From the NCBI GenBank assembly GCA_937924525.1, contig CALDSU010000001.1, positions 186,001-250,000 on the forward strand: 64,000 nucleotides of DNA, written 5' to 3'. Positions within the stretch are counted from its first letter, which is position 1; each line of letters starts with the position of its first letter. Below the pieces are notes generated by a model, which saw only the letters and a program-made list of their open reading frames with translations, was not told where the DNA came from and did not search any database. Positions 55 to 29,719 of this stretch are shown here, in pieces. The position numbers and the translations under genes were made by a program. Source of the stretch: an uncultured Bryobacteraceae bacterium. Its GTDB lineage: Bacteria > Acidobacteriota > Terriglobia > Bryobacterales > Bryobacteraceae.

Positions 55-1989
55 CTACGGGTCGGGCGGCGCGGCGGCCCCTTGGCGGGCTAACTGGTCA
101 ATGAGGAGTTGCGTGGAAAGGACGCCGACGACGGCCATGTTGTCGGCCGCGCTCCATACGCCGCCGCGGCGCGCCTTGGCCGCCAGCGCCTCCACGGCGG
201 CCGGATGGAAGATGCCATCCTGCCGCACGCGGCCGGGGCTGAGCAACTCCTCTACATAATCCGGGGCGCGGGGACCGAAAAAGCAAGCTGCGTCCGGCGC
301 GCGATAAGGTTGTTTGCGGCGCGCAAGAATGGCGGGCGGCGCCAGCGCTTGCGCGCACTTCCTGAGCAAGTACTTCTCGTTGAGCACTTTCATCTTCCAG
401 ACCGCCGGCAGCCGCGCGGCGAATTCCACTACGCCTGGATCCAGGAAAGGAAACCGTCCCTCCACCGCATGGGCCATGGCGACCCGGTCTCCCTGCGACG
501 AAAGAATGTATCCGGGCAGCAGATAGCGAGCTTCCAGATACTGCGCGCGCGTGAATGCGTCCCAAGCGGCGTACGCGGGAGGAAGCAAGCCGCCCAGCAC
601 GGCGAGCGGATCGCGGCCTGCCAGTTCGGCTCTCACCTGGTCCGAGAACAGGGTCTTCAACCGCGCCGTCATCCGCCACCGCGGCAGGTGAGAAAAGAAG
701 AGGCTGTTCGCCTCTTCCGGCCGGAGGCGGTAGAACGCCTCCAAATAAGCCTGGGATTGGGCCTGAGTCCGCCTCTGGTAGGGATAGAGGCGGCGAAGCA
801 GCAGCGAACGGAAACGGGACCCCGGCTGGGCCGCCCAGAAGGAGCGGATCTTGACTTCCTTAAAGATGTCATAGCCGCCCAGCATCTCGTCGGCGCCTTC
901 GCCGGTGAGCACCACCTTGAAGCCGCGCCGGTGGACCAGGTCCGCCAGCAGGTACATGGGGGCCGGCGCCGTGCGCAACACCGGCTTCTCGGTGTGGCGA
1001 ATGACCGCCGGGAACACCTGGGCGATGTCGGCCGCGGTGCAGCGGAGTTCCTCATGCTCGGTTCCCAGCGAGTCGGCCGCGGCGCGCTGATACCGCCCTT
1101 CGTCCAGATCCTGCTGGTCGAATCGCACCGAGAACGTGCGGAGGCGCGCCACGCCCGTCTCCCGAATCAGACTCGCGATTACCGTCGAGTCCAGCCCTCC
1201 GCTCAAGTAGGCTCCCACCGGCACGTCGGCGCGCAACCGCAAGCGGGTCGCCTGCCGCAACAGCTCCAGCAGACGCCGGGCGGCGGTTTGCTCCGTATCC
1301 GTGGGCGCTTCGGCGCAGTAATGCAGATCCCAGTGCGTTTGCAGCCGCAGTTCTCCCGCCGTCCACCACGCCGAGCACCCGGGCGGAAGCTCGCGCACTC
1401 CCACAAACGCAGTGCGCGGGGGCAGGGTATGCCAGAAGGTGAAGATTTCGTCCAGGGCTTCCAGGTCCAGAGCGCGAGGGACGGCGGGATGGACAAAGAG
1501 CGCTTTGATCTCGGAAGCAAAGAGCAACATGCCCCCGAGCTGGATGTAATACAGCGGCCGCACGCCCAGCCGGTCGCGGGAAAGAAACAGCCGCCGCCCG
1601 CGCCGGTCCCAGATGGCGAACGCCCACTGGCCGTTCAGCCTCGAGACGCACTCCGCGCCGTATTGCTCGAACAGCCGGAGGACCACCTCCGTGTCGGATC
1701 GCGTGACGAACCGCTGTCCGCGCGCGCAGAGCTCCTCGCGCAGTTCCAGATAGTTGAACACTTCGCCGTTGAATACGATCCACAGCGAGCCATCTTCGGT
1801 CGCCATCGGCTGCCCCCCGCCCTCCAGGTCGATGACGCTGAGCCTGGCGTGTCCTAAGGCGGCGCAGGAATCCACGTAAACGCCCGAATCATCCGGTCCG
1901 CGGTGACGCAGGGCGTGAACCATACGCCGAACCAGCATTGCTCCCTCCCGAGGGGGCGATTCGGCTGCGTAACCGGCAATGCCACACAT
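55..1989 (-). CDS. asnB: asparagine synthetase (glutamine-hydrolysing)-like amidotransferase
   Basis: 644 aa, the usual size for the AsnB family. The start is placed at the ATG that leaves Cys2 (MCGIAGY) as the N-terminal glutaminase nucleophile; a longer reading would bury that cysteine. Residues 2 to about 200 form the class II glutaminase domain (RHRGPDD near 29, FNGEVFNY near 73), and SGGLDS at 263-268 is the ATP-pyrophosphatase loop of the synthetase domain. Family members make asparagine from aspartate and glutamine, but AsnB paralogues in polysaccharide loci often amidate uronic acids or other acidic groups. Its position beside an EPS operon makes a polymer-amidating role possible. It points away from the plus-strand beta-helix gene across a 556-bp gap, so it is probably transcribed separately from the main EPS operon. 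Confidence 0.9.
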   Translation of the reverse strand: MCGIAGYAAESPPREGAMLVRRMVHALRHRGPDDSGVYVDSCAALGHARLSVIDLEGGGQPMATEDGSLWIVFNGEVFNYLELREELCARGQRFVTRSDTEVVLRLFEQYGAECVSRLNGQWAFAIWDRRGRRLFLSRDRLGVRPLYYIQLGGMLLFASEIKALFVHPAVPRALDLEALDEIFTFWHTLPPRTAFVGVRELPPGCSAWWTAGELRLQTHWDLHYCAEAPTDTEQTAARRLLELLRQATRLRLRADVPVGAYLSGGLDSTVIASLIRETGVARLRTFSVRFDQQDLDEGRYQRAAADSLGTEHEELRCTAADIAQVFPAVIRHTEKPVLRTAPAPMYLLADLVHRRGFKVVLTGEGADEMLGGYDIFKEVKIRSFWAAQPGSRFRSLLLRRLYPYQRRTQAQSQAYLEAFYRLRPEEANSLFFSHLPRWRMTARLKTLFSDQVRAELAGRDPLAVLGGLLPPAYAAWDAFTRAQYLEARYLLPGYILSSQGDRVAMAHAVEGRFPFLDPGVVEFAARLPAVWKMKVLNEKYLLRKCAQALAPPAILARRKQPYRAPDAACFFGPRAPDYVEELLSPGRVRQDGIFHPAAVEALAAKARRGGVWSAADNMAVVGVLSTQLLIDQLARQGAAAPPDP

Positions 1990-2285
1990 AGATGGTCCAA
2001 AGTTCAGGCTTGAGAGCGGTTGGCTCGCCGCGGCGTGCGCGCGGTGTGTACGGGGAGGTTCCTGAACGTGCCCGCACAAACCATACTTAGGACATCTCCC
2101 AAAAACACCCTAGAGCGGCCTAAGGTGCAAAGCTTACTACCATCCCTCTTCCTGATCTGTTCGTTATTTGATCGCCTTTGTTTGCCTTATCCGACCATGC
2201 TTGATCGCTCTATTCTACTCGCCAACTCGACCTAGCCGGGATGCATCGGGCGGCTGCTAGTACTATGGCCTCGTCGAAAGCCCCG

Positions 2286-5967: not shown

Positions 5968-8841
5968 TCATAACCGGAAGGCCTCGATGGCCAAAGGGTC
6001 CAGCGCGACGCGCAGGAACCGGGGTGTGGCGGGCTGGTCCGCAAGGTGGAGCAGCCGCAGGAAGAACGCCTCGGCGGGACCGTTCGGATGCCGCAGCGGA
6101 AGGCACTTCGAACAGGACGCGCCTTGGGGATGCACAATGCGCCTGACGATTTCATGAAGGCCGGGCTGCCAGGCTCGGGTGGCGATGTGGCAGCCCAGCC
6201 GGCGGGCGGCCTCCGGGCAAGAGACTTGAGCCGGCGCGAACGCCCGGTTCGCAGCCTGAAACATAGGCAAGTCTGCTTCCGTATCTCCCACGGCAATCGT
6301 TTCCAGGTGCGACCGTCCGGCCACCTGGAGGAGCGCGCGGAGCCCCTGGCCTTTGTCGGAGTCCACCGCGGTGATGGTGGAATCGGTAAAGGTCTGGTGC
6401 AGTTGGAGACCGTGCAACCCCAGCCGGTGCAGCAGACCGCGCACCAGCGTCTCCGGCAGCGGCACGGGAACCCCGCGCGCGAACGTATAGGCGCGGACAC
6501 AGAAGCGGCAGCCCTCATGGCAAAACACGCCGGGCAGGCCGGCGAGTTCGGCGCGCAGGCGTTCCAACTGCCGGAGGGAGGAGTCGCTCAACAGCACGCG
6601 CTCGCGGCCGCTGATCGCGTCCCAAACGTAGGCGCCATATTCGGCGACGCCTCCGGCGCAGCCGTAGATATCGCAGTAGGCGCGCATCTCGGCGGCGGGC
6701 CGGGCGGTATTGAGGGCGATGGTGAAACCGTGGGAGCGGAGCAGCGAGATGGCTCGAATCCCGGCGGCCGTCGTCGAGGGAAACCCAAAGACTTGCTTGT
6801 CCAGCACGCCATCCACGTCGAGCATGACGACGGGAGCGCGCCAGGCAACCAGAGGCGCGGGCTGCGCGACGCGGGCGCAGAAGCGCGCGGTGCGCAACGT
6901 GAGGAACTCGGCGGCGTCACGGTAGCGCTGGTGGTAACGCGTGTGGCGGACGGACTGGGCCGCGTCCCGCAAACCGTCGGCCGCCCTGGCCATGGCCCAC
7001 GTCCCGGAGAGGAGCTGATAAAGGAGCAGGCGCCGGGAAACGTCCGTATCGCCGGAGGCGCGGGCATAGGCCGTCACCATCGCTTCTTCCTGTTCCTCCG
7101 TCAGCCGGCACGTCAGCGCCGCCTCCGCCAGGTCGTACGCCGGGTCGGTGACGTTGAGCTGGTGTTTGCCCATGCCGTGGTGTTCGAAGTCGGTCTTGAG
7201 CCAATGTCCGTCGCGGGCGATCCATTCCTCGGGGCGCATCTTGCCGTCCAGCAGCGCCGGGCGTGCGCAGGCCAACAGCCGGCTGAGCCGGACTCTCAGA
7301 CGCGGGCGGGCCAGCACCGCGGCGACTTTGTTCCCGTAAGCGCCGCTCAGCACCGCCGCCAGTTCCTCGACTCCGCGATGCTGGCCTGCCCGGGCGAGCG
7401 GCGGCGTCGGGTCAAGCGGCAAGGCCAGCGTGCTGGCGCGCGCCGCCACGTACGTCGCGGCGGCCGCGGCCAAACTCTCCCGTGGTTCCTCTGTTTGGCC
7501 GCCCAGGGGATCGACCCACTCCTCCAGGAGAACGCCATCGCGCAGGCTGAGCACGTGGGGCACGCAGGACGCCAGACGGGTGCCGGCGAGGAACGCGTGG
7601 TAGCTCAGCCAGCCCCACCCGACGCTCTTGGCCAAGACGCGGAACGGGGCGGCAGCTCCCGGCGTGGTCACTGCAAACACCCGCTTTAGCCGCGCGTGAA
7701 ATCCTGGCTCCTGCGAGGCTGCCAGTTCCGCATCGCGGTCGAGCGCCGGCGCGACTTGGCACGGCGCGCCGTCCAGCAAGGCGGCGAGCCGCTCGCGGAT
7801 GGCCTCCGGACGAAGCAAAGAGACCTTGTGCCACTCTCCGGGTTCCAGGGTCACGCTGCGAACCGCGGCCAGGATGCCGCCGGCCGCTCCTTGGCGCCAG
7901 TCGCGCCGGTAGGGGTGGACCGGAAAGAGCGCCACGATGTCCTCCACGCCAAAGCCCGCGCGGCGCAGGAGGTCGATTCCGCGCGCCACGGTGTCCGCTG
8001 AGTACACCGGTTCGTCCACCAGGAGGGCGAGCGCCCCACGTCCCTGCATCCGCCGCAGCCAGCGTTCCTCCCGCGCGGAAACGCCTGCTTTCGGGCGCAG
8101 GGTAAGCGCATGGACTTCCGAGAACCCCGCGCGGAGCAGACAGGAGCGGACCAGCGGCGCGAAGTACGCTCCCGCAGTGCGCAGACCAGCGACCAGCACC
8201 GGACGACGGGGTCCAGAATACGCGGCGATGAATTTGCGGGCGAGCGTCCACGCATCGTGCGGCGTCAGGTCTTGCGAACGGAAGGCGGCGGGGACGCGCG
8301 CCCGCCACGCCAGCAGCGTCGGCGGGAGCCGTTGCGCGAGCAGATCGCGGAGGGGCGCGCCAGCCTCCGGTCCGGCGGCGCGCGCCGCCGGCGGGGCGGC
8401 GAACGGCGTCAGCGCCTCCTCCCATTGGTCGCGCCACCGCGCCACGCGCCGCCAGCGAAGGTCCCGGAGGAGCGCCGCGCCGCGGCAGAACCGGTCCAGC
8501 GGACCGGCAGCCAAACGTGCGGAGCGAAACACCCGCGCTGCGCGCAAGAAGTCGTACCGCGGGCCCAACAGGAACTCGTCCGTGGCTTCGGCGATCAGGC
8601 AAGCGAGCAGGAAAATGTTCTGCCGCACCTGCTCGCCCTGCCAGTCTTCGAGCGGCTCGCCCAGGCGGCGGAGTTCCTGACGCAGGAAGGCGATGGCCTC
8701 TCCCACCGAAGGAAACGCGTTCAGGCACCAGGGGTAGCTTCCGTAGAATTCAGCCTCGGCGGCGGGCGGCGTCAGAGCCGCCGTGGCGGGCCTGCTTAAG
8801 GCGTTCGCGACGCAGTCTGCAACGTGGTTGGCGCTTGGCAT
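5968..8841 (-). CDS. PRTase-like / APH-kinase-like / HAD phosphatase fusion protein
   Basis: 957 aa, not recognised as a named family. Residues 1-200 have no clear domain. Residues about 212-310 look like a type I phosphoribosyltransferase core: strand VLVAGL, then LLVDEPVYSADT (273-284) in place of the PRPP loop. Residues about 380-640 resemble an aminoglycoside/choline-kinase fold: a beta-3-like Lys (LAKS, 402-405), KTDFEHHG (549-556) like the DFG position, and DPAYDLAEA (566-574). Residues 668-900 are a Cof-like HAD phosphatase: DVDG (675-678), Thr712, Lys830, GDTEAD (852-857). The ATG at 8841 is preferred to a TTG two codons upstream; neither has a good ribosome site, and the gene overlaps the methyltransferase by 46 nt, suggesting coupling. 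It is the last gene of the EPS operon. It may build or recycle a phosphorylated sugar or nucleotide-like group; this is inference. Confidence 0.7.
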   Translation of the reverse strand: MPSANHVADCVANALSRPATAALTPPAAEAEFYGSYPWCLNAFPSVGEAIAFLRQELRRLGEPLEDWQGEQVRQNIFLLACLIAEATDEFLLGPRYDFLRAARVFRSARLAAGPLDRFCRGAALLRDLRWRRVARWRDQWEEALTPFAAPPAARAAGPEAGAPLRDLLAQRLPPTLLAWRARVPAAFRSQDLTPHDAWTLARKFIAAYSGPRRPVLVAGLRTAGAYFAPLVRSCLLRAGFSEVHALTLRPKAGVSAREERWLRRMQGRGALALLVDEPVYSADTVARGIDLLRRAGFGVEDIVALFPVHPYRRDWRQGAAGGILAAVRSVTLEPGEWHKVSLLRPEAIRERLAALLDGAPCQVAPALDRDAELAASQEPGFHARLKRVFAVTTPGAAAPFRVLAKSVGWGWLSYHAFLAGTRLASCVPHVLSLRDGVLLEEWVDPLGGQTEEPRESLAAAAATYVAARASTLALPLDPTPPLARAGQHRGVEELAAVLSGAYGNKVAAVLARPRLRVRLSRLLACARPALLDGKMRPEEWIARDGHWLKTDFEHHGMGKHQLNVTDPAYDLAEAALTCRLTEEQEEAMVTAYARASGDTDVSRRLLLYQLLSGTWAMARAADGLRDAAQSVRHTRYHQRYRDAAEFLTLRTARFCARVAQPAPLVAWRAPVVMLDVDGVLDKQVFGFPSTTAAGIRAISLLRSHGFTIALNTARPAAEMRAYCDIYGCAGGVAEYGAYVWDAISGRERVLLSDSSLRQLERLRAELAGLPGVFCHEGCRFCVRAYTFARGVPVPLPETLVRGLLHRLGLHGLQLHQTFTDSTITAVDSDKGQGLRALLQVAGRSHLETIAVGDTEADLPMFQAANRAFAPAQVSCPEAARRLGCHIATRAWQPGLHEIVRRIVHPQGASCSKCLPLRHPNGPAEAFFLRLLHLADQPATPRFLRVALDPLAIEAFRL

Positions 8842-9410
8842 GGGCAATTTTCGCGCTGTCCGGCGCGGAGCGGCTTACGGGCCACCAGCGTGACCTCGAT
8901 CTCATCGATTCCGCCCAGCAGGTACGCCAGAAAGCGCTCTCCAAATGTGGGATGACGATCAAGCAGCCACTGCGCGAACTTACCCCAAACGCCGTAGATC
9001 GACCGCCACGGCTTCTCCGCCAAGTAGCGAAGGCGCACGGCGCAGACGGCAAAGCGCGCGGGCGTGTAATACGAGTACGCGTTCTCTCCGAAATACGCAA
9101 ACGATTCGGAAGTGAAACAGTGTTTATGGGTGGGGTCTTTCCAGGCGTACCGGCCCGTGTAGTGGGGCACCCGGATGCGCACCGCCGCCCCGTCGCGGGC
9201 GATCCGCCATATCTCCGCCAGCGTGCGGACCGGATCGTCGAGGTGCTCCAGGATGTGATGCAGAAAAACCTCATCGGCGGCGTCGGAAGCGAACGGATAG
9301 GGAAACCGGTTCAGATCGCAAATCACGTCCACCGCCGGCAGTGCGCGCACATCCACGCCGATCGCGCCGGGGTGTTTGCGAAGCCCGCAGCCGATATCCA
9401 GGCGGATCAA
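8796..9410 (-). CDS. class I SAM-dependent methyltransferase
   Basis: 204 aa. The TTG at 9410 is chosen because GAGG sits 8 nt upstream and the product then begins IRLDIGCG, the usual opening of this family with SAM motif I at the N-terminus. Other signs are DLNRFPYPF (about 32-40) and HHILEHLDD (about 50-58), the motif II/III region of type-11 methyltransferases found in sugar and EPS loci. The acceptor is unknown. An upstream TTG at 9509 would add 33 residues of low-complexity character. The gene follows a 170-bp gap after the beta-helix gene, the largest gap in the operon, and its 3' end overlaps the fusion gene. Confidence 0.75.
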   Translation of the reverse strand: MIRLDIGCGLRKHPGAIGVDVRALPAVDVICDLNRFPYPFASDAADEVFLHHILEHLDDPVRTLAEIWRIARDGAAVRIRVPHYTGRYAWKDPTHKHCFTSESFAYFGENAYSYYTPARFAVCAVRLRYLAEKPWRSIYGVWGKFAQWLLDRHPTFGERFLAYLLGGIDEIEVTLVARKPLRAGQRENCPCQAPTTLQTASRTP

Positions 9411-9580
9411 CGGGCGGCCCTCGCCGATGACTCGGCACGAAGCGGCAGTTCGCCGCCCGGCCAGTGGAACGTAAAGGCCCGAGCAAGGAGCGCACCCCGC
9501 CCGGACCAACGGCCGAACTTTTTGCGGCGGGCGGGGCCGAAACAGATTGGCATCTCAACCTCTCGATCCGGGGAATCCCG

Positions 9581-11917
9581 TCAGCGGACGGCAAACGTCA
9601 CATCCCGGCTGGCGGCGTCTCCCGCCCGCAAGGCGATGGGTATGGCCTCGCCGGTTCCGGTGTGCGCCGGGATGCGGGCGTTGATTTGAAATACGTTCGA
9701 CAACAGACCCCAGGCTGCGCCCGCGTAAAGCAGGTCCGCCTGCTGTCCGTCCAGCCAGACGGAGACGGGCGCAAGGGGCTGTGGCAAGGGCGGTTCCGCC
9801 GCGCGTCCGGTATGGCTGGGCGGGTCGGTGCGCCCGAGTCCAGCGGCGTAGAACACGATGATGGAGGTTCGCGGGGCCGGATGGCTGGTGGAGTTGAGCG
9901 TGCCGTCCTGGTTGATCACCAGCGCCTGCCCTTCCCCGGAGCCATCGGCTGTGAAGATCGCCGGTGAAGCACGGGTCACCGGAATCCCGATCTCGTTGGA
10001 GCGTTCGCCCCGAACCTCGACCGCGATCCGCACCTCCCCGGCCTCCGGCAGATCATAGGGCAGAAGGGCGGTCACCTGGCGAGCGCTGGCGTAAAACAGG
10101 GGAACCGGTGTATCCCCGGCGAACACCCGGGTTCCCCCCAGATTGCTGGTGGCGACGCCGTTGTCCATCACCACGGAGCAAGGCGGATCCGGCCCCAGGT
10201 TCCATCCCAGCAGCACCGCCACCGATCCCGGGGCTAAAGGTTCAGCCTGCATACTCGCCCCGTTGACCACCGAGTGCAGCGTGGGCGTCCGGGGCAGGAA
10301 TTCGAACGCGCCGGTGTCACAGGCGCTTCCTTGCGGCCGCGGCCGCCCGTCGAAATCTTCGGGCGCCAGAGCGAGCGCCGTGGTCTGATCGATGGCCGCG
10401 CTCCCTGGCAACAGGTGAAAATCCAGGGCGGACGCGTTCGCGAATTGCACCGGACCGGTTACCGGATTGCTGTCGCCGCGGCCCCGCACCACGGGCGCTC
10501 CCGGGTGGTAGGAGTTGCCAGCCAGTGTCACGTTGCGCGCCACTTCCCCGTTCTCCACGTGCGCCGCGGCGAACCATTCGCAGTTTTGCCGGCACGCCGC
10601 ATTCGCAGCCTGGTAGAAGAGATTGTTGCGGATGTCCACCTGTTCCAGGCTCGGGTCGCTGGCCACGTACAGTGCCTGGCGGCCATTCTGGTAGAAGGTG
10701 TTGTGATACACCTTCAGATCGCGCGCAATGCCTTGAAGCACTAATCCCGCGTGATTGTTGCCAGCGAACACGTTATTCCGGATGATCACGTTCTCAATGC
10801 GGTTCCCGTAGTTGCCCTGGTCCCCCATGGCGACAATCATGCCGGAACGCTGAGTCGAATTCTTCAAGACATTGCCCTCGACGAGCACGTTGCGGATCAC
10901 GCGCACAAAGTCAGCCGCCTCGCGCCGCTCGTCGTAGAGGTGCAGGCCGTAGCCGGGCGGGCCGCTGCCGATGTTGTACAGGATTTTCTGGTTGCTGCCC
11001 TGCGAGATGTAATAGCAGTGCCCCATGGTGCCGACGCTGCTGCCGGAGACCTCGCAGACATTGCCGGCCACCAGGTGCTCGCTGCCGTGAGCATCCACCG
11101 CGGCCCAGGCGATCTGTCCCGCGAAGGTGTTGTTCACGAACCGCGCGGCGGTCTGGTTGCGGCTCGCCCACCCCACGGCGTTGAGCGATTTCCCGTTGCG
11201 GAAGCGCAGGCCGGCCACGGTGACGTAGCTGGCGTCGAGCAGGAAGTCGCGCTGGGGATTGTCCAGCACAGCCTCTTCGCCGGGGAAATTCCGGATGGTC
11301 TTGGGCTGGCCGGGCGCGCCCCCCTGGCTTTCGCGAATCCAGATCTCGCCCTCGGGGTAAGTTCCGCCGCGGACCAGCAGAACATCGCCGGGACGCATGA
11401 TCTCGGCGGCGGCGTGCAGAATCGTGGCGCAGGGCGAGGTTTCTGAGCAGGGGGCGGAATCGGAGCCTCCCGGCGCGACATAGTAAATCCGGCCGGAATT
11501 CACGGTGAAGCGATGGCCGGCGTTGGAATCCTGTCCTCCGACGGTGACCACCACGGGGCCGCCCTGCACGCGCGGGCCGGGCTGGACGACGATCATGTCG
11601 AGGTAAGGATTATGGGCATTGTTTTCGCCCCAGATCAGGTACGCGGCCACCTCCACGCCCCCGATTGTGACGCGGGAACCGCCGCGCGCCGCGCCGAAAC
11701 CTTTGCCGAAAATGGAAATCGGAGCGCCCAGATTCCTGGGTCCGCCCCGGTTGGGGCCGCTTTCGGTGTCCAGAAAAAATACCCGCGGTCCGGCAATCGC
11801 CTCCGCCCGGGATCGATCCGGACCCGGCAGCGCGGCAGCCAGCGGGATCGCACGGTGCGGAGAGGGGTGCGTCCCCAGCACCAAGATGCAGAGCGCGAAG
11901 GGACGTTTCCAGGTCAT
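9581..11917 (-). CDS. secreted beta-helix protein with TIGR03437-like C-terminal domain
   Basis: 778 aa with an N-terminal hydrophobic signal (RPFALCILVLG). An IPT-like domain (about 45-140, PISIFGKGFGAARGG) leads into IYYVAPGGSDSAPCSE and a right-handed beta-helix (about 145-545; repeated NNxF and N-xV-I turns). Residues about 550-778 match the C-terminal domain frequent in Solibacter secreted proteins: NGAS near 548, VTALLPYDLP, PAIFT, GQALVINQDGTLNS, IIVFYAAGLG. The domain order parallels the protein at 2546-5893. The role is probably in EPS modification or cell-surface attachment, but no catalytic site was recognised. The ATG overlaps the flippase stop (ATGA, 11914-11917), indicating translational coupling in the EPS operon. 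Confidence 0.8.
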   Translation of the reverse strand: MTWKRPFALCILVLGTHPSPHRAIPLAAALPGPDRSRAEAIAGPRVFFLDTESGPNRGGPRNLGAPISIFGKGFGAARGGSRVTIGGVEVAAYLIWGENNAHNPYLDMIVVQPGPRVQGGPVVVTVGGQDSNAGHRFTVNSGRIYYVAPGGSDSAPCSETSPCATILHAAAEIMRPGDVLLVRGGTYPEGEIWIRESQGGAPGQPKTIRNFPGEEAVLDNPQRDFLLDASYVTVAGLRFRNGKSLNAVGWASRNQTAARFVNNTFAGQIAWAAVDAHGSEHLVAGNVCEVSGSSVGTMGHCYYISQGSNQKILYNIGSGPPGYGLHLYDERREAADFVRVIRNVLVEGNVLKNSTQRSGMIVAMGDQGNYGNRIENVIIRNNVFAGNNHAGLVLQGIARDLKVYHNTFYQNGRQALYVASDPSLEQVDIRNNLFYQAANAACRQNCEWFAAAHVENGEVARNVTLAGNSYHPGAPVVRGRGDSNPVTGPVQFANASALDFHLLPGSAAIDQTTALALAPEDFDGRPRPQGSACDTGAFEFLPRTPTLHSVVNGASMQAEPLAPGSVAVLLGWNLGPDPPCSVVMDNGVATSNLGGTRVFAGDTPVPLFYASARQVTALLPYDLPEAGEVRIAVEVRGERSNEIGIPVTRASPAIFTADGSGEGQALVINQDGTLNSTSHPAPRTSIIVFYAAGLGRTDPPSHTGRAAEPPLPQPLAPVSVWLDGQQADLLYAGAAWGLLSNVFQINARIPAHTGTGEAIPIALRAGDAASRDVTFAVR

Positions 11918-13446
11918 GCTCGCCTCTCAATCAGCCATTCCGCAGCCCGCCGGACGCGCGCGTCGAGCGCATACAGCGCCGCCAGGTACACGCCCAGCGC
12001 CGCGGTGCTCTTTCCCGCCAGGTTCCAGGCGGGGTGCCTGGTTTCGATCAGCCACGCCGCCAGCCAGGCCGCGGCCGCGGCCATCGCATATCGCCCGCAG
12101 GCGCGGCCTGGCCAGCGCAGCGGCAGCAGGCGGCGGGACGCTCCCGCCAGCCAGACGGTACACAAGGAGAAGCTCAACAGGGCCGCGCACGCGCCGCCGG
12201 CCAGCCCCAGCCGGGGTAGCAGCAGCCAGTTGAGCGAAACATTCACGACCGCGGACGCAAGCAGGATGCCCGCCATCGTCACGGTGCGCTTGTGAATCAG
12301 CAAGCCCGCCGCCAGAAACAGGTGCGCCGTGTAGACGAGCAGCCCCGCCAGCAGGGGTGGAATCAGCGCGCCCGCGCCCGCGTACTTGGCGGAGGCCAGC
12401 ACCAGGACGAGGTCCCGCGCACCCGCGACGGCAAGGGTGAGAATCGCCGCCGCCCCCATCAGAAACCAGTCGAAGGAGACGGTGAGGAATTCGATCGTGC
12501 TCTCGCGTCCCTCCGTGTTCCAGATCCGCATATAGATCGGCGTCAGCGCCAGACTCAGCGGCGTGATCAGGAACTCGTTGGCGTGTTGCGCCAGCCCGTA
12601 GGCGACCGAGTAGAGACCCAGCGCCTCTCCGCCGAGAAAATGGCGGATCAGAAACCGGTCCGTGGAGCCCAAGACGTTGAAGGAGAACTCGTAGACGACC
12701 AGCGGCGCGCCATACAGGATGCTGGCGCCGAGCAGCGTGCGGTCGAAAGCGGACGGCGCCAGCAGACCGCGCCGCAACAGCCAGACGCCCAGTCCGGCGA
12801 CCAGCAAACTTTCCACCGCGATCGCACCGGCAAAGAAAGAACGGGCGTGACGCCCCAGCACGGGCAGCCAAAGGCAGACCGCCCCGAGCGTGGCGGCCTT
12901 GGAAGCAACCAGCAGCGCGTTGTACGTCTTGGTGCGCTCTTCCACCCGCAGGAAAGTCCACAACATGGACCCGGCCGAACGCAGCAGCAGCAGGACGGCC
13001 AGCACGGACACCAGGGCCGCCAGCGCGCCGTCCATCACCGACCGGGGCAGGAAGCGCGCGAAGGTGACAAAAAGCAGGGCCGCCGCGCCAGACGAAACCA
13101 GCACTCCGAGCAAGAGCGTGGAAAAGTAGGCCCGCCGGGCCGTGGCGTCGCTTTCGAAGCGGGGCCCGTCGTAGAAGCGCAGCGCCGCGTTCTGCAAGCC
13201 CAGTTTTGCGCCCCCCCACAGCAACAGCAGCGTTTTCTGCGCCAGATCGATCAATCCGTACTGCGCCACGGGAAAGACTCGCGTGAAGATCGGAAAGGAA
13301 ATCAAGCCGAAGGCAAAGGAGCCCGCCAGTCCTGCCAGGTAGTGGGACGCCTGGAGCCGCAGCCGGTGGATTTCCTCGGCGATGACGCCGGAAGTTTCCC
13401 CGGGAGCGGGGGGCGGCGCGACCGCGGCGCCGGACACTCTCGTCAT
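11914..13446 (-). CDS. Wzx-like polysaccharide flippase (MOP superfamily)
   Basis: 510 aa with about 12-14 hydrophobic segments and a short cytoplasmic N-terminus (residues 1-40). YGLIDLAQKTLLLLWGG and GSTDRFLIRHFLGGEALGLYSVAYGLA are typical of the polysaccharide synthesis (RfbX/Wzx) group. It should move the lipid-linked repeat unit from the inner to the outer face of the cytoplasmic membrane. The start is the ATG at 13446, overlapping the upstream glycosyltransferase stop by ATGA; upstream codons in frame are low-complexity. It belongs with the Wzy-like gene at 20734 and the Wza/Wzz genes in a Wzx/Wzy-dependent pathway. Confidence 0.88.
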   Translation of the reverse strand: MTRVSGAAVAPPPAPGETSGVIAEEIHRLRLQASHYLAGLAGSFAFGLISFPIFTRVFPVAQYGLIDLAQKTLLLLWGGAKLGLQNAALRFYDGPRFESDATARRAYFSTLLLGVLVSSGAAALLFVTFARFLPRSVMDGALAALVSVLAVLLLLRSAGSMLWTFLRVEERTKTYNALLVASKAATLGAVCLWLPVLGRHARSFFAGAIAVESLLVAGLGVWLLRRGLLAPSAFDRTLLGASILYGAPLVVYEFSFNVLGSTDRFLIRHFLGGEALGLYSVAYGLAQHANEFLITPLSLALTPIYMRIWNTEGRESTIEFLTVSFDWFLMGAAAILTLAVAGARDLVLVLASAKYAGAGALIPPLLAGLLVYTAHLFLAAGLLIHKRTVTMAGILLASAVVNVSLNWLLLPRLGLAGGACAALLSFSLCTVWLAGASRRLLPLRWPGRACGRYAMAAAAAWLAAWLIETRHPAWNLAGKSTAALGVYLAALYALDARVRRAAEWLIERRA

Positions 13447-14666
13447 CGTTCTGCCTTCACCAAGCCGGACGCCTGGGCGGCGCGCCGCTCCCCGCCCAGC
13501 GCATCCCGGTAGCAATCGCGGGTGCGGAGCGCGATGTCGTCCCAGCGCGGCAGGCGCGCCTGGGCCGCTTGCAGGTTGCGCGCCAGCCGGCTCCGCAAGC
13601 CTGCGCTGGCCGCGAGGCGGCACAAGGCATCCGCCCACGCGGAGACGTCGCCGCAAGGGACCAGCAGCGCGTTCTCCCCGCCGGCGAGCATCTGCTCGAA
13701 GGCAGGCAGTTGCGTGGCGACCACCGCCTTGCCGCGCACCAGCCCGGTCATCAGCGCCCCACTGGTGGTGATCTCCTGGTAGGGGTAGACCAGCACGTCC
13801 GCGGCGGCGAAGTAGTCGCTGAGTTCCCGCCGGGAGAGGAATCGCAGGTCCAGGTGCACACTGCCCCGTAAGTCAAGCTCCGCAGTCTCATGGATCACCT
13901 GCCGCGCCAGCGCCGGTTTGCCGCTCCCCGCGATCACCAGCCGCGCGTGCGGGTACCGTGCGCGGACTTCACGCCAGGCGCGCAGCAGGAACGAAACGCC
14001 CTTGTAAGGCCGCAAAATCCCGTGCCAAAGAAAGACGCAGCCGTCGGAAGGTAAACCGAGCCGCGCGCGCGCGACGCCCGGCGCGGGCGCGCCGTCTTCT
14101 TCGAACAGGGGACCGTGGGGAATCACGGCGATTCGCTGGCCGGGGATGCCGAACTCAGCGGCCAGCCGGCGCGCCGTTTCCTCGTCATGACAAACCAGCC
14201 GGGCGGCTGACTGGTAGACGCGGCGGTACGTCTCCCGGCGTCGCGCTCCGGTGTCCTGCGGCAACAGGTTGTGAACCGTGTAGACAATGGTCACGCCGAG
14301 GGCGCGAACCGCCCGAAGAAACCAACGCTCCAGGGGACAACCCCAGCGCAAGAGCGGCAAAAACTGCACATGGAGCACGTCCGGCCGGCGGATGGCGAAA
14401 CGAACCAGCAGCGCGGCGAGATTCAGCAGGTATTCGGCGAGCTTTGCCGGCCGCCGCAGCAGCGCGGGAGCGCGCCAGGCGAAGTTCACCAACCCCGGAT
14501 CCGGCCCCAGACCCAGGTGCGAGAAGCACTCCGGGTCATGGTGATAAGTAATCGTGGCGGGCCAGACCCGCACGTTTCCGGCGCTCGCGAGGGCGGCGCA
14601 CAGATGGCCGACATAGTAAGGCACCACGGCGAGGGCGTCCAGCACCACCACCTGCACGGACATCAT
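13443..14666 (-). CDS. glycosyltransferase family 4
   Basis: 407 aa, GT-B fold. The N-terminal half carries VLHVQFLPLLRWG and YTVHNLLPQD. The C-terminal half has FLWHGILRPYKG (about 220-231), LVIAGSG, and the donor-site region YPYQEITTSGAL (about 297-308) with a Thr-rich variant of the usual E-x7-E pocket. It likely adds one sugar to the lipid-linked EPS unit at the cytoplasmic membrane. Two ATGs in tandem at 14666 and 14663 follow GGGAGAG, so the start is certain to one codon. The stop overlaps the flippase start. Confidence 0.85.
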   Translation of the reverse strand: MMSVQVVVLDALAVVPYYVGHLCAALASAGNVRVWPATITYHHDPECFSHLGLGPDPGLVNFAWRAPALLRRPAKLAEYLLNLAALLVRFAIRRPDVLHVQFLPLLRWGCPLERWFLRAVRALGVTIVYTVHNLLPQDTGARRRETYRRVYQSAARLVCHDEETARRLAAEFGIPGQRIAVIPHGPLFEEDGAPAPGVARARLGLPSDGCVFLWHGILRPYKGVSFLLRAWREVRARYPHARLVIAGSGKPALARQVIHETAELDLRGSVHLDLRFLSRRELSDYFAAADVLVYPYQEITTSGALMTGLVRGKAVVATQLPAFEQMLAGGENALLVPCGDVSAWADALCRLAASAGLRSRLARNLQAAQARLPRWDDIALRTRDCYRDALGGERRAAQASGLVKAER

Positions 14667-14687: not shown

Positions 14688-16622
14688 CTACGAGATGGAT
14701 ACCGGGGCTGCGGCCGCCAGCCGCGCGGCGATCTCTTCGCGCGGCGTCTGGACGCACACAGGGCTCGCGGGCGCGGGCCGGTACTCGGTCACCAACTGCG
14801 CCAGGTGCGTCAGGACCGCCTCGCGTTCCCCTCTCCACAACAGGTACTGCAACTCGGTGATCCAGGGCACCAACTCTTCCAGGTCCCGGCGTTCGCCCTG
14901 GAAGACGCGAATCTTTTCCTGGGCGGTAGGCAGCCACTGCTCGGCTTCCAGTTGCAGATCCTCGTGCAGCTTTTCGCCAGGGCGCACGCCGGTGTACTGA
15001 ATCTCGATGTCATCGCCGGGCGCGAGGCCGGCCAGCAAGATCATTTTGCGGGCGAGATCGACGACCCGTACGGGCTTTCCCATGTCCAGCACAAAGATCT
15101 CCGAACCGCTGGCGATGGTAACGGCTTGCAGCACCAGTTGCACCGCCTCTTGGACGGTCATGAAGTAACGCCGCATTTCGGGATGGGTGACGGTCACCGG
15201 CCCCCCGGCCGCGATCTGTTTCTCGAAGATGGGCACCACGCTCCCGTTGCTCACCAGCACGTTGCCGAAGCGGACGCTGACGAACCGGGGAGGAGGGCCC
15301 GGGCCCAGGGGCGGCCGCGCGGCGGACACCAGAATCTCCGCCACCCGCTTGGTGAGCCCCATCACGCTGCTGGGGTTGACCGCCTTATCCGTGGAGATCA
15401 ACAGAAAGCGCGAAACCTGGGCCCGCCAGGCGGCCTGCACCAGGTTCCAGGTGCCCAACACGTTGTTGCGTACGGCCTCGCCAACCTGGCGCTCCATCAA
15501 CGGCACGTGCTTGTAGGCCGCCGCGTGAAAGACGACGTCCACGCCGCGCTCGTCGATCACCTGCTCCACGCGCCGCGCCTCACGAATATCGCCGATCTCG
15601 GGGGCCAGCGGCAGGGAGGGAAATTCCCGCCGCAGCCGCGCCTCCAGATGGAACATTTCGGTTTCCGCCTGGTCGAAAGCCACCAGTTCGCCGACATGCA
15701 GTTGCGCCAGCTGACGGCAGAGTTCCGAGCCGATGGATCCGGCCGCGCCGGTGACCAGCACGCGGCGGCCCCCCAGGCAGCGGCGGACCGGCTCCAGGTC
15801 GAGCTGCACCGGTTCGCGGTCCAACAGTCCCGCGACGGACAACTCGTGTGTCCGGCTCGAGGTGGTCTTTCCGCGAAGCAGGTCGCCCAAGCCGGGCACG
15901 ACGCGGCTGGGAAGCCCCGCCGCGCGCCCCCGGTCGAGCGCGGCGCGAAGCTGACGTCCGGTGGCCGAGGGCATCGCCACCACCACCTCCGCCACGGGTT
16001 TGCCGTGGTCCCGGCAGCGGGCCGCGATTGCCCGGAGACGGTCGCCGGGGCCGAGTACCGGGAGGCCAAGCAGCCTGGCGCCCTGCTTCCGGGGGTCGTC
16101 GTCGACGAATCCCACCACGCGGTAACCCAGGGCCGGATTGCCCCGGATCTCCCGCGCCAGATCCAGGCCGGCTACGCCAGCGCCGTAAATCAGCAGATTC
16201 TTGGTATTGTGGCGCGCCCGCCACGCCGCCGCCACTTCCCACCAGCCTCGCGCCGCGAAGCGCGCTCCGGCGGTGACAAAGAAGCAGAGCAAGGCGTCCA
16301 GCAGGTAAATCGAACGCGGGAAGGCGGGGCCGATGCCCCAAAACCACGCCCCGCCCGCGGCCAGCGAAGCCAATCCGTTGGCTCGCGCCAGGTCCAGCAG
16401 ATCGGCGAAGGTGGCGTACCTGGCGCAGCGGTCCAGGCCCACGGGCAAAGCCGCGAAGACGAGCGTCTTGAACAGCACGGCCAGCGCCAGACCGTGCCAG
16501 AGCGCCGTCCACTCGTGGGATGGCAGGGCGAACTCGAACCGCAGGAGCCAGGCGGCGCCATACGCAACGGCGATCAGCAGGCTCCACAGAGGCCACGCCC
16601 AGATTCGTCTTGCTCGTGTCAT
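14688..16622 (-). CDS. membrane NDP-sugar 4,6-dehydratase/epimerase, FlaA1/CapD family
   Basis: 644 aa, the normal length of the CapD/PglF/WbpM group. About four membrane helices occupy residues 8-130 (WPLWSLLIAVAYGAAWLLRF first). A CoA-binding-like Rossmann domain follows (about 135-260, LLIYGAGVAGLDL). The catalytic SDR domain starts at VLVTGAAGSIGSE (about 285) and carries STDKAVNPSSVMGLTKR (about 410-426), the active-site signature of the group. These enzymes convert UDP-GlcNAc-type sugars to 4-keto-6-deoxy or epimerised products. The next gene upstream is a DegT aminotransferase, the expected partner for making an amino-deoxy sugar. Start ATG 16622 directly precedes the first helix. Confidence 0.9.
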   Translation of the reverse strand: MTRARRIWAWPLWSLLIAVAYGAAWLLRFEFALPSHEWTALWHGLALAVLFKTLVFAALPVGLDRCARYATFADLLDLARANGLASLAAGGAWFWGIGPAFPRSIYLLDALLCFFVTAGARFAARGWWEVAAAWRARHNTKNLLIYGAGVAGLDLAREIRGNPALGYRVVGFVDDDPRKQGARLLGLPVLGPGDRLRAIAARCRDHGKPVAEVVVAMPSATGRQLRAALDRGRAAGLPSRVVPGLGDLLRGKTTSSRTHELSVAGLLDREPVQLDLEPVRRCLGGRRVLVTGAAGSIGSELCRQLAQLHVGELVAFDQAETEMFHLEARLRREFPSLPLAPEIGDIREARRVEQVIDERGVDVVFHAAAYKHVPLMERQVGEAVRNNVLGTWNLVQAAWRAQVSRFLLISTDKAVNPSSVMGLTKRVAEILVSAARPPLGPGPPPRFVSVRFGNVLVSNGSVVPIFEKQIAAGGPVTVTHPEMRRYFMTVQEAVQLVLQAVTIASGSEIFVLDMGKPVRVVDLARKMILLAGLAPGDDIEIQYTGVRPGEKLHEDLQLEAEQWLPTAQEKIRVFQGERRDLEELVPWITELQYLLWRGEREAVLTHLAQLVTEYRPAPASPVCVQTPREEIAARLAAAAPVSIS

Positions 16623-16642
16623 TTTCCGTTTGTCCCGTTGGT

Positions 16643-17854
16643 TCAGACCGCGGCGGCCAAGCCGGCCACCTTCGTTTTGCGGTGCGCGCGCGCCACCTGT
16701 TTGACGGCCTCGGCGACGTATGCCACCTGGTTTTCGGTCATCGCCGGATACAGCGGCAGCGAGATCAACCGGGGATACAGCGCCATCGCCCGCGGGCACG
16801 CCGCGGACGCGCGGCCGGCCCACCCCGCATACGCCGGGTGCAGAGGGATGGGGATAAAGTGCACGCTGGTAGAAACCCCCAGGGCGCGCAGCGCGGAAAT
16901 GAATTCCGCGCGAGGGACCGTGAGTTTCTCCAGGCGAAGCCGGAGCGTATACAAATGCCAGGCATGCCGGCAGTCGGCACGATCCGGGGGAAGCCCGACT
17001 TCTTCGACGTCCGCCAGCAGCTCATGATAGAGACGCGCGTAGCGGGTGCGCACCCGCGTGAACTCCTCCAACCGGCGAAGCTGGTGCACGCCGAGAGCCG
17101 CCTGAATGTCGCTCAGATTGTACTTAAATCCCGGCTGCAGCACCTGGTATTCCCACCGGCCGCGGGCCGCATAGCGGCGCCAGGCGTCGCGGCTGATGCC
17201 ATGGAGACACAACACGCGCATGGCTTCCGCGAGATCTTCTTCGTGGGTGGTCACCATGCCGCCTTCCCCCGTCGTCAGGTTCTTGGTCGCGTAAAAGCTG
17301 AAGGCGCAGGCGTCGCTGTGTTCGTCGGCGGCGGGATCGCCCGCGCCGACCGGCCAACCTTGATACCGGGCGCCGGCGGCGTGGGCGGCGTCTTCAATCA
17401 CGCGCAGTCCGTGGAGGCGCGCGAGCGCCCAGAAGGCGCGCAGGTCGCACGGGAGCCCCGCAAAGTGCACCGGGAGGATCGCCCGGGTGCGCTCCGTGAT
17501 GGCGGCGGCTGCCGCCTGGGGATCGAGGTTGCCGTCTTCGCCCACGTCGGCCAGCACCGGGCGGGCGCCGGTATGCAGAATGACATTCACGGTGGCGCAA
17601 AAGGTCAAGGGCGTGGTGATCACTTCCGCGCCCGGTCCGAGATTAAGGGCCGCCAAAGCCAGGTGCAGGCCTGCGGTGCAGGAGTTCACCGCGAGCGCGT
17701 AGGGCGCTTCCACATAAGCGCGGAACTCGCGCTCGAACTGCTCGACGCGCGGTCCCGAGGTCAGCCAGCCGGATTGGAGGGTCCGGACCACTTCTTCGAT
17801 TTCTTCCACGCCGAGGCTCGGACGGTGGAAGGGAATCTCTTGGTAGGGCAACAT
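16643..17854 (-). CDS. DegT/DnrJ/EryC1/StrS sugar aminotransferase
   Basis: 403 aa, fold-type I PLP enzyme. IPFHRPSLG at the N-terminus is typical. The cofactor lysine is Lys191 in FSFYATKNLTTGEGG, with the PLP-contacting Asp in VIEDAAHAAG (about 152-161). It should transaminate a 4-keto sugar nucleotide, consistent with the dehydratase encoded 20 bp downstream, so the pair probably makes a 4-amino-4,6-dideoxy sugar. Start ATG 17854 has a weak GAGAAA upstream. A second, distinct DegT protein is encoded at 49600-50838. Confidence 0.9.
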   Translation of the reverse strand: MLPYQEIPFHRPSLGVEEIEEVVRTLQSGWLTSGPRVEQFEREFRAYVEAPYALAVNSCTAGLHLALAALNLGPGAEVITTPLTFCATVNVILHTGARPVLADVGEDGNLDPQAAAAAITERTRAILPVHFAGLPCDLRAFWALARLHGLRVIEDAAHAAGARYQGWPVGAGDPAADEHSDACAFSFYATKNLTTGEGGMVTTHEEDLAEAMRVLCLHGISRDAWRRYAARGRWEYQVLQPGFKYNLSDIQAALGVHQLRRLEEFTRVRTRYARLYHELLADVEEVGLPPDRADCRHAWHLYTLRLRLEKLTVPRAEFISALRALGVSTSVHFIPIPLHPAYAGWAGRASAACPRAMALYPRLISLPLYPAMTENQVAYVAEAVKQVARAHRKTKVAGLAAAV

Positions 17855-17884: not shown

Positions 17885-18556
17885 TCAATCGGCCGACACG
17901 GCCCCGGCCGGTTTACGGACTTTCCGCCGCCGGCCGAGGCCCGACGGCAGCAACGGCGCCGCGGCGGCGACGATCACCCGCCATGCCGTGCGCGCGACGC
18001 AAGCGGCGTCGGTCCAAGCCGTACGCCTGCGGGCGTATTCCAGGTCGCGGAGAATCTTCGGGGCGAGCAGGTGGGTCAGATAGTATTCCTCCGGATCCGC
18101 GCCGGGCGGAATCCGTTCGGCTTCTTCTCCGGCTGCCAACTGAGAGGGACCGGTGATGCCCGGTTGCAGCGCCAGCACGGCGCGCTGCGCGGCGGTGTAA
18201 TGTCTCACCACGGAAAGGGCCTCCGGGCGCGGGCCGACCAGGGTGACGTCGCCGCGGAGCAGGTTGTACAACTGCGGCAATTCGTCGAGCTTCGCGCGGC
18301 GCAGCCAAAAGCCGAGCCCGGTGATCCGCCGATCCCGCGGCCCTGTGATCGCGGGTCCCTGGCGGTCGGCGTGCCGGATCATGGTGCGAAATTTCCATAA
18401 GCGAAAAGGCCTTCCGTCCCGACCGGCGCGCCAGGCGGCGAAAAAAGGACCTCCGGGCGAGCTGGCGGCGACCGCAATCGCCACCAGCGCCAACAGCGGG
18501 CTCAGCAGCGCCAGGGCCGCCGCCGCCACCGCCAGGTCGATCGCTCTTCGGATCAT
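17885..18556 (-). CDS. EPS-initiating sugar-1-phosphate transferase (WbaP/PglC-type)
   Basis: 223 aa, close to the minimal catalytic form without the extra N-terminal membrane domain of WbaP/WcaJ. One N-terminal hydrophobic hairpin (about 5-33) is followed by LWKFRTM (about 53-59) and KLDELPQLYNLLRGDVTLVGPRP (about 89-111), the signature of bacterial sugar transferases. It would load the first sugar phosphate onto undecaprenyl phosphate. The start at ATG 18556 overlaps the preceding glycosyltransferase stop by ATGA; a longer reading lacks membrane character. Confidence 0.92.
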   Translation of the reverse strand: MIRRAIDLAVAAAALALLSPLLALVAIAVAASSPGGPFFAAWRAGRDGRPFRLWKFRTMIRHADRQGPAITGPRDRRITGLGFWLRRAKLDELPQLYNLLRGDVTLVGPRPEALSVVRHYTAAQRAVLALQPGITGPSQLAAGEEAERIPPGADPEEYYLTHLLAPKILRDLEYARRRTAWTDAACVARTAWRVIVAAAAPLLPSGLGRRRKVRKPAGAVSAD

Positions 18557-19599
18557 GGGTGTTCGTGGGTCAACCGGTTGAAGATCGAGTCGCCGTCCAC
18601 CCGGCGTCCGCGCCGCAGCTCCGCTCCCAAACCGGCGAGAAAACCCAGCCCGTACGCGCAGTGAAACGTTGCGAACGCCGCGGGTAGCCACGGCAGCGTG
18701 TCCCATCCGTGGCGGCGGGCGGTAACGAGCGACGCCGCCAGGAGGGAGGCGGCATAGGCGAAGTTCAGCAGCGCCCAGCCGGCGCCCCACCAGCCCGGAA
18801 CCCCGCCCGCCAGCAGCGACCCCAGCGTTCCGCCCGCCAGCGAGACTTGGGCCAGGACAAAAGCAGCGGGCGTTAGATGCCGCCACGACCCCGCGCCGTG
18901 CTTGCGGATCACGGCGACTTTCCAGAATCCGTACTGCGCGTACTGCCCGAACAGGGCGCGGAGCGTAGCGCGCGGTGCGTACCAGGAGCGGATGCGCGGA
19001 TTCTGCCAGATGCGGCCCCCGGCGCGGCGGAGACGGAGATTGAACTCGTCGTCCTGATTGCGGACCAGCGTTTCATCAAAGCCGCCCAGCCGTTCGAACA
19101 CCTCGCGCCGCCAGCAACCATAGGGGACCGTATCCACCCAGCCCTCGTAATCTTCCCGGTGAAAGCGCGCGCCGCCGGTGGAGAAGCGGGAATGGTAAGC
19201 TCCGGCGATGGCGCGCGCCCGCGCTCCCGCCGCCTCCGTGCGCGCGGGTCCCCCGACGTTGTCCGCGCCGGTGGCCAGCAGGGTGGCCACGCATGCGGCG
19301 CAATAGTCGGGCGCGTACCGCGTATGCGCATCCAAGCGGAGCACAATCTCACCTCGCGCCACGCGAAGGGCCGCGTTGAGCCCCGTCGAGGCAATGCGGC
19401 CGGGATTGTCGATGAGCCGCAGGCGGACGTGCCGCCGCGCATAGCCGGCCACGACCTCGCGGGTGCCATCTTCGCTTCCGCCGTCCGCAATGATGGCTTC
19501 CCAGTCCAGTTCGCCCATCCGCTGCTCCCGCAGCGAATCGAGGAACGATCGAATGTGGCGGGCTTCGTTCCGGCAAGCGACGATCAACGAGATCCGCAT
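18553..19599 (-). CDS. glycosyltransferase family 2, ExoA-like
   Basis: 348 aa. The GT-A domain starts ISLIVACRNEARHI, with ADGGSEDGT (about 38-46), a DAH in place of DxD (VLRLDAHTRYAPD, about 88-100), and NQDDEFNLRLRRAG (about 185-198). Two or three C-terminal membrane helices (about 240-320) fit ExoA/succinoglycan-type enzymes that act at the inner membrane. It probably adds an internal sugar to the repeat unit. It lies 9 bp after the neighbouring GT4 and overlaps the sugar transferase start. Confidence 0.87.
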   Translation of the reverse strand: MRISLIVACRNEARHIRSFLDSLREQRMGELDWEAIIADGGSEDGTREVVAGYARRHVRLRLIDNPGRIASTGLNAALRVARGEIVLRLDAHTRYAPDYCAACVATLLATGADNVGGPARTEAAGARARAIAGAYHSRFSTGGARFHREDYEGWVDTVPYGCWRREVFERLGGFDETLVRNQDDEFNLRLRRAGGRIWQNPRIRSWYAPRATLRALFGQYAQYGFWKVAVIRKHGAGSWRHLTPAAFVLAQVSLAGGTLGSLLAGGVPGWWGAGWALLNFAYAASLLAASLVTARRHGWDTLPWLPAAFATFHCAYGLGFLAGLGAELRRGRRVDGDSIFNRLTHEHP

Positions 19600-29681: not shown

Positions 29682-29719
29682 GTCGCCCTGCCTTCTCCCC
29701 CTGTGGCCCGGGATGCCCT

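Follow-up and report, generated by a model that had tools for sequence, protein, structure and literature searches.

A phosphoribosyltransferase-like, kinase-like and HAD phosphatase fusion protein of acidobacterial exopolysaccharide operons, a candidate for glycan ribosylation

Introduction

Ribofuranose is brought into bacterial polysaccharides by an established route that pairs a transferase using phosphoribosyl pyrophosphate (PRPP) with a phosphatase of the HAD superfamily. Bcs3 is described as transferring ribofuranose-5-phosphate (Ribf-5-P) from PRPP, after which its CrpP domain strips the phosphate (PMC10299916); proteins composed of gPRT and PRP modules follow the same PRPP and HAD route (PMC11127046, PMC11231755), as does Cj1432 on the way to ribofuranose (PMC12096443). 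Here we analyse a gene for a 957-residue protein in a 64,000-nucleotide stretch of an uncultured Bryobacteraceae bacterium (contig CALDSU010000001.1, positions 186,001 to 250,000; hereafter the window). Like the gPRT-PRP proteins, Bcs3 and Cj1432, its product unites a putative PRPP-transferase module and a HAD phosphatase in one polypeptide, in a setting of polysaccharide biosynthesis. In contrast to these, it carries a kinase-like domain between the phosphoribosyltransferase (PRTase) and the HAD part, and the PRPP donor, shown for the three described systems, is a prediction for the window protein.

The window protein belongs to a PRTase/kinase-like family without a name that occurs in glycan clusters of two phyla, and whose HAD-fused branch is found in acidobacterial exopolysaccharide (EPS) operons. 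We propose, at a probability of roughly 45%, that it is an EPS-modifying enzyme, most likely acting by two-step ribosylation, that is, PRPP-dependent O-phosphoribosylation of a glycan followed by removal of the 5-phosphate. The module homologies, conserved active-site residues, fusion, neighbourhoods and two-module relatives reported below were all computed in this study.

Results

Module architecture

The fusion gene lies on the minus strand, where a frame opening with an ATG at 8841 and closing at 5968 gives 957 amino acids plus a stop; the plus strand of the same interval contains stops in that register. An earlier note, made from the sequence alone, had read three enzyme-like modules in it, and both the modules and their order are borne out by PF08282, by PRTase and kinase profiles and by predicted folds; the motifs it quoted, LLVDEPVYSADT, KTDFEHHG, DPAYDLAEA (566-574), DVDG, T712, K830 and GDTEAD, are all located at the residues it named. 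A PRTase fold and, on the evidence of profiles, a kinase fold are found before residue 640, and homologues of the fusion do occur in EPS loci. The note had known of no named family with such a layout, and no model that covers the three modules was found in Pfam, NCBIfam, PHROGs or PADLOC, the PHROGs search of the fusion protein matching the HAD part alone. The full-length AlphaFold model is weak, with a mean predicted local distance difference test score (pLDDT) of 51.9. Ahead of the three modules, a region of about residues 28-170 aligns across the three-module copies.

The HAD part is the most readily assigned. In the window protein it matches PF08282 at 1.3e-8, above the family's cut-off, and the Cof and IIB models of NCBIfam below theirs. 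A profile of six HAD sequences retrieved HAD-IIB structures (3fzq at 1.5e-16), and the predicted HAD model superimposed on 1wr8 over residues 667-864 with a VIA Z of 15.1 and a root-mean-square deviation (rmsd) of 3.1 for 179 residues. The catalytic residues are kept in 10/10 copies counted (Table 1), position 712 being Thr or Ser in every one; the fusion of genome G341, split over two contigs, was excluded from this count. Judged by sequence, the HAD-IIB motifs I-IV are complete, as the earlier note had held for a Cof-like active site.

For the PRTase module, the predicted fold resembles PyrR (4p83; VIA-align Z 11.6, rmsd 3.4, 130 residues), with further matches within residues 185-342 to 7rh8 (Z 11.2) and 6wn8 (Z 10.9), so that PyrR, UPRT and APRT all score at about 11; over residues 191-340 the pLDDT of this model, taken in blocks of ten, is 56-87. 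Pfam gave no PRTase match for the window copy alone, even at E 10, but PF00156 matches 4/7 members of alignment A1 and exceeds its cut-off in the copy of locus L011. In searches of the Protein Data Bank (PDB), a 12-sequence profile found OPRT (2wns) at 3.8e-5, then UPRT, APRT and PyrR, and a 15-sequence profile had one match at 0.01 or better, again an OPRT (0.0011). Against the genome's own PRTases, the profiles reached E 0.0037 with all copies, 0.00067 with the three-module copies and 0.0032 in a further run. The acidic pair, D276 with E or D at 277, is present in 21/21 copies, including those that lack the HAD part; G219-x-R221-x-x-G224 and R249-P250 are invariant, and position 282 is Gly in 20 other copies and Ala solely in the window copy. 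The module thus shares its fold, acidic pair and loop pattern with OPRT, UPRT, APRT and PyrR, and differs from them in being fused to two other modules, in lying in EPS operons and in having no recognisable acceptor site. Fold and acidic pair support membership of the type I PRTase superfamily, with PRPP-dependent transfer as the putative activity. Structures of Bcs3 or of the T. composti enzyme are not among the profile and fold matches listed.

The middle module has no Pfam match. In HHalign, a 15-sequence profile aligned to the choline-kinase-like L066 at 94.1% over 254 columns with an E value of 1.3e-7, which holds for a single comparison. A sister run, whose target was L066 plus one wrong 79-residue row (L099), scored 49.1, compared with at most 17.5 among 60 column shuffles belonging to that run; this shuffle test is lenient, as a control of PRTase against kinases (13.7) also exceeded its 60 shuffles (13.4). 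Choline kinases were also found in the PDB, 4r77 at 0.0013 and 3dxq at 0.013 with one profile, and 3dxq at 8.5e-4 and 4r77 at 0.021 with a second; the other matches, 4cnl (0.01 and 0.017; short repeats, second in both searches) and 2fvh (0.088), look accidental. Comparison with 28 APH sequences, L066 included, gave E 0.054 for all copies, 0.051 for the three-module copies and 0.047 with 15 copies. A model of the kinase part alone had a mean pLDDT of 48.0 and VIA Z values of at most 7.6, a range that the tool calls common, and in Foldseek no match to it reached E 0.001, LicA coming closest at 0.13. Because the structure model is poor, the case for a kinase-like fold rests mainly on the profiles.

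As to the active site, DGKMRPEEW of the window protein aligns with HNDLLAANF of L066, which places D532 at the His, K534 at the catalytic Asp and E539 at the metal-binding Asn of the kinase motif HxDxxxxN, and D551 at the Asp of a motif further along, DW(E). The distance from D532 to D551 is 19 residues in 8/10 listed copies (20 and 15 in the remaining two), against a His-to-Asp spacing of 19-24 in APHs (10/15 listed, those in which both patterns were found). In all 19 copies with letters at position 534, this residue is Lys, Arg, His or Gln and never Asp, D532 and W540 are invariant, and 539 is Glu or Asp; K549, D551, H555, D566 and D570 are invariant in 20/20 copies. The residue mapping is supported, though not proven, since the motifs fall in different places when the family is compared with generic APHs (E 0.05) instead of L066. 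The profile similarity to choline kinases and APHs (LicA 4r77, 3dxq, L066) is strongest in the C-lobe, where D551 and D570 occupy conserved Asp positions, and homology extends over the domain; unlike in those families, however, HxDxxxxN is absent, replaced by Dx[KRHQ][ML]xxx[ED]W, and W540, K549 and H555 are conserved within the fusion family. The resemblance to APH and choline kinase proposed in the earlier note thus holds at the level of profiles, but not for the catalytic Asp. With K/R/H/Q at that position in 19/19 copies, the middle module is probably not an ordinary kinase; we infer that the canonical phosphotransfer base has been lost and that a conserved pocket remains.

Distribution and relatives

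The window protein finds only itself in its own 5.5 Mb genome (E 0.001). Among 396 genomes of the phylum, its own included, five were matched at 1e-5, four of them with a three-module and one (G269) with a two-module protein; alignment A1 matched 14/396 at 1e-6, four by the HAD part alone, and alignment A9 10/396 at 1e-10. At the level of the order, 4/257 genomes were matched, again including its own. A pattern scan of 84,980 species genomes, which reaches close relatives only, yielded 33 candidate stretches, of which three were confirmed. Overall, the same fusion, which the earlier note had suggested seeking in other acidobacterial loci, is present in eight acidobacterial genomes besides this one (G177, G287, G341, G456, G457, G458, L007 and L008), G457 carrying two copies on one contig. 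One further fusion, L009, lies on a short contig labelled Chloroflexi, which may be mis-binned because it shares its soil sample series and its methyltransferase neighbour with L008. The gene of L009 has a frame break at 1100-1121, either a deletion or an assembly error.

A two-module PRTase-kinase form, without the HAD part and without a name in Pfam or NCBIfam, is found in Acidobacteriota and Alphaproteobacteria, e.g. on pSymB of Sinorhizobium. Two such queries each matched 89 plasmid records, from Sinorhizobium, Roseomonas, Azospirillum, Rhizobium, Ensifer and Ciceribacter, while the L014 two-module query had no match in phages. The three-module and two-module proteins separate in the tree with 100/100 support; its root serves for drawing only and gives no age order of the two forms. 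Within the three-module proteins there are two groups, A and B (95/95 and 86/83), with the window, L007, L008 and one L104 copy (L104A) in group A, to which L009 and L012/L013 are added by similarity, outside the tree, and with L010, L011, L104B, L105 and L106 in group B. No relative of the fusion was found in viral contigs. A mobile origin of the fusion was rejected, as the window protein was without match in plasmids or phages at 1e-5, and so was a role in anti-phage defence, as no PADLOC family matched at E 1.

Loci of the three-module form

The EPS setting read by the earlier note is seen in the window and in most loci with enough sequence (Table 1): glycosyltransferase, sugar-transferase, flippase or ligase-like neighbours are present in the window, L007, L008, L012, L104, L105 and L106, those of L104-L106 being annotated by tblastn only, and group A has EPS-type neighbours wherever the sequence suffices. 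Genes like the amidotransferase of the window also occur at L007 and L008, with a more distant one at L013. On the basis of its gene content, we call the window cluster an EPS operon but not a proven XrtA system, because TIGR03007, TIGR03025 and TIGR03097 all stay below the cut-offs of NCBI.

The methyltransferase gene upstream overlaps the fusion gene by 46 bp. The earlier note had seen a two-protein pathway in this; the overlap is real, but the partnership is not universal, as a homologue adjoins the fusion in 4/11 loci (the window, L008, L009 and L013; L012 and L013 count once, L104 with its two copies twice). In L008, L009 and L013 the homologue lies downstream of the fusion. In group B, FemAB/GNAT-like and proline-dehydrogenase-like genes directly precede the fusion in 5/5 cases, joined by a GT4 gene in L104, L105 and L106; this pair may decorate the glycan with a group derived from proline. 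The proline-dehydrogenase-like enzyme of L010 matches 2ekg at 1.2e-20.

Table 1. Position of the fusion gene, its modules and motifs, and neighbouring genes in the window
Feature	Position	Strand	Basis
PRTase/kinase-like/HAD fusion gene, 957 aa	5968..8841	-	open reading frame and translation
N-terminal helical region, residues ~28-170	8332..8760	-	mostly helical in low-confidence model
Type I PRTase fold, residues ~185-342	7816..8289	-	VIA-align, profile matches, PF00156 in relatives
PRPP-loop LLVDEPVYSADT (273-284)	7990..8025	-	motif in translation
Choline-kinase/APH-like domain, residues ~381-664	6850..7701	-	HHalign to L066, PDB profiles, weak fold matches
DGKMRPEEW (532-540), in place of kinase HxDxxxxN	7222..7248	-	alignment with L066
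KTDFEHHG (549-556)	7174..7197	-	motif in translation
HAD-IIB (Cof-type) phosphatase, residues ~667-905	6127..6843	-	PF08282, fold, profile
HAD motif I DVDGVLD (675-681)	6799..6819	-	D675 and D677 in 10/10
HAD motif III K830 and motif IV GDTEAD (852-857)	6271..6354	-	K830, G852, D853, D857 in 10/10
Asparagine-synthase-type amidotransferase	55..2079	-	library matches
S-adenosylmethionine (SAM) methyltransferase	8796..9509	-	PF08241 5e-6
Beta-helix/TIG protein, Solibacter C-terminal domain, within EPS operon	9581-11917	-	TIGR03437 3.7e-55
Polysaccharide flippase-like gene	11914..13656	-	PF01943
GT4 glycosyltransferase	13443..14666	-	family search
Nucleoside diphosphate (NDP)-sugar epimerase/dehydratase (Polysacc_synt_2)	14688..16823	-	PF02719 6e-108
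PseC-like sugar aminotransferase	16643..17854	-	PF01041; TIGR03588 below cut-off
Polyprenyl glycosylphosphotransferase-like gene	17885..18886	-	TIGR03025 1e-54, below cut-off
Glycosyltransferase resembling EpsD	18553..19599	-	NF041875 9e-21, below cut-off
GT4-type glycosyltransferase	19609..20730	-	TIGR03088 1e-41, below cut-off
O-glycosylation/O-antigen-ligase-like protein	20734..22152	-	TIGR03097 1e-18, below cut-off
GT4-type glycosyltransferase	22067..23296	-	similar gene near fusion in L007, L104, L105, L106
EPS chain-length determinant resembling XrtA type	28158..29726	-	TIGR03007 2.7e-62, below cut-off

Loci of the two-module form

Parts of one glycan cluster are common to two acidobacterial (L014, L037) and four alphaproteobacterial loci (L093, L094, L095, L097); the shared cluster also reaches L098, the second Sinorhizobium meliloti copy (1021 pSymB), and its alphaproteobacterial carriers are plasmids. 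Glycosyltransferase and epimerase genes accompany the two-module gene in L014, L037, L093, L094 and L095, a beta-xylosidase-like gene in L014, L037, L093, L094 and L097, a TIGR04290 methyltransferase in L014, L037, L094 and L098, a TIGR04295 B12-radical-SAM protein in L014 and L094, and an inositol-3-phosphate synthase in L093, L094, L095, L097 and also L098. These cluster genes were not found in L034, L035, L036, L038 and L096, except that L035 and L036 gave weak oxidoreductase matches; the neighbours of L034-L036 are barely annotated. A literature search under the names TIGR04290 and TIGR04295 returned no paper on this cluster.

In 7/11 two-module loci a separate phosphatase gene is found at most about 3.5 kb away, a raw count with no chance control from which L098 was excluded, its species being already represented. 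It is a histidine phosphatase in L093, L094, L095 and L097, and by motif in L014, and a small HAD protein, below the Pfam cut-off, in L014, L037 and L038, the last with a two-module gene that is itself a fragment. The best scores of the L094 histidine phosphatase are with MSMEG_4193 and alpha-ribazole phosphatase, neither of which reaches its cut-off. The count leaves out two genes of L096, an annotated HAD-like gene at a distance of 3.8 kb and a histidine phosphatase at 8.5 kb. Such neighbours, drawn from two unrelated phosphatase types, would agree with phosphate removal being required after transfer, as if the fused HAD module took the place of a separate enzyme.

Discussion

In the ribosylation that we propose, the PRTase module would transfer a 5-phosphoribosyl unit from PRPP to a hydroxyl of the growing glycan or of a precursor, probably with inversion, and the fused HAD-IIB phosphatase would then take off the 5-phosphate to leave a ribofuranosyl substituent, which later enzymes, perhaps including the neighbouring methyltransferase, could use. 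The middle module would more likely bind the acceptor or a nucleotide, or carry out an altered chemistry, than act as an ordinary kinase. A bolder version, which we hold only tentatively, is that the family constitutes a further, independently evolved class of PRPP-dependent glycan ribosyltransferases. It would join a type I PRTase to a kinase fold that is without its catalytic Asp and whose invariant D-x-[KRHQ]...[ED]W / K-x-D-x3-H site would recognise the acceptor or catalyse a new reaction. Acidobacteriota and Alphaproteobacteria, Sinorhizobium meliloti among them, would share the two-module form as a component of their glycan clusters, and the three-module form would have arisen when a HAD-IIB phosphatase was acquired in EPS operons of acidobacteria. 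If true, the ability to build ribose into bacterial polysaccharides would have an additional, separate evolutionary origin, an unannotated family on the megaplasmid of a model symbiont would gain a testable function, and there would be a kinase fold whose active site is conserved, but not that of a kinase.

Several observations weigh against two-step ribosylation. The acidic residues of CriT, D680 and E818, are described as lying in different loops, and the CrpP cap as mostly helical (PMC10299916), whereas D276 and E277 of the window protein are contiguous in the style of type I PRTases and its HAD module is of the IIB/Cof type. Because HAD subclass and acidic pair thus differ from Bcs3, function cannot be transferred by homology. 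On the features tested, the window protein falls outside the gPRT-PRP and CriT-CrpP families, and it may work like them by analogy. BtrL is a further precedent for O-ribosylation, on which a literature search yielded nothing of use. Its PRPP loop reads SADT, as opposed to [ST]Gx[ST] in the other 20 copies, and with the otherwise conserved glycine replaced, PRPP binding could be weakened in this copy. Taken alone, the two-module profiles are weak, reaching only E 0.089 for the PRTase part against the genome's PRTases and only E 0.54 for the kinase part against the 28 APHs, and the kinase-like module has only a putative part in the scheme. As to context, no glycosyltransferase neighbours are shown for L009 (a short contig), L010 and L011; the tested phosphatases are not near the two-module gene in 4/11 loci (L034, L035, L036 and L096); and the histidine phosphatase of L093-L095 and L097, which adjoins the inositol-3-phosphate synthase, may act on inositol phosphate.

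This last point leads to the first alternative, in which the PRTase makes a small molecule, either a nucleotide or a ribosylated cyclitol (e.g. on inositol), which the HAD module dephosphorylates before it enters the glycan as a nucleoside-like or ribosyl-cyclitol building block. The closest relatives of the PRTase module, OPRT, UPRT, APRT and PyrR, act on nucleobases, and the synthase stands beside the two-module form in the four loci just named; yet no inositol synthase match was found in the window, L007-L013, L014, L034-L038 or L096, and we regard this alternative as unlikely. The earlier note had pointed to a related idea, the Ter-linked biosynthetic modules, in which PRTase and HAD genes reportedly occur together. 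This link is not supported, and membership of the Ter system is rejected, since the 99%-complete genome (G000) has 0 matches to TerD (PF02342) or PRTase_2 (PF15609) at E 0.001, which also counts against the small-molecule route; the polysaccharide context differs as well from that of the Ter-linked modules. One account of the Ter system mentions two PRTases (PMC5512222).

According to a second alternative, the PRTase merely senses PRPP, the kinase-like part is a scaffold and the HAD module alone is an enzyme, with a sugar phosphate of EPS precursor supply as its substrate. PyrR, whose role is partly regulatory, is among the best fold matches, and the altered PRPP loop of the window copy would agree with such a sensor; the PRTase residues, however, are kept in 21/21 copies, those without a HAD part included, and we regard this reading, too, as unlikely. 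Least probable of all is that the kinase-like domain phosphorylates a sugar that the methyltransferase then methylates, as in methylphosphate-terminated O antigens, with PRTase and HAD otherwise employed: the methyltransferase overlap in the window, the homologues adjoining the fusion in L008, L009 and L013, the TIGR04290 methyltransferases of L014, L037, L094 and L098 and the precedent of kinase-methyltransferase chain terminators (PMC11231755) speak for it, but the catalytic-Asp position is never Asp in 19/19 copies and the window methyltransferase is unmatched in the available stretches of L007, L010, L011, L104, L105 and L106. Two-step ribosylation remains our preferred reading.

Further observations at individual loci

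A gene of the CofD family lies near the fusion in L012 (1624-2688, 4 bp overlap) and L008 (6335-7348). The gene at 20451-21617 of L008, about 7.6 kb from the fusion, represents a family without an NCBIfam match at 1e-5 or a PDB match at E 1, members of which are near the fusion in L013, L104, L105 and L106. Positions 1-800 of L013 encode residues 596-712 of the fusion on the minus strand and residues 797-953 on the plus strand; this contig start is probably a fold-back assembly artefact. In L104 (G457), the two fusions, at 12007-15174 and 6130-9000, belong to groups A and B, respectively, and have the same orientation; GT4, GNAT and proline-dehydrogenase-like genes separate them.

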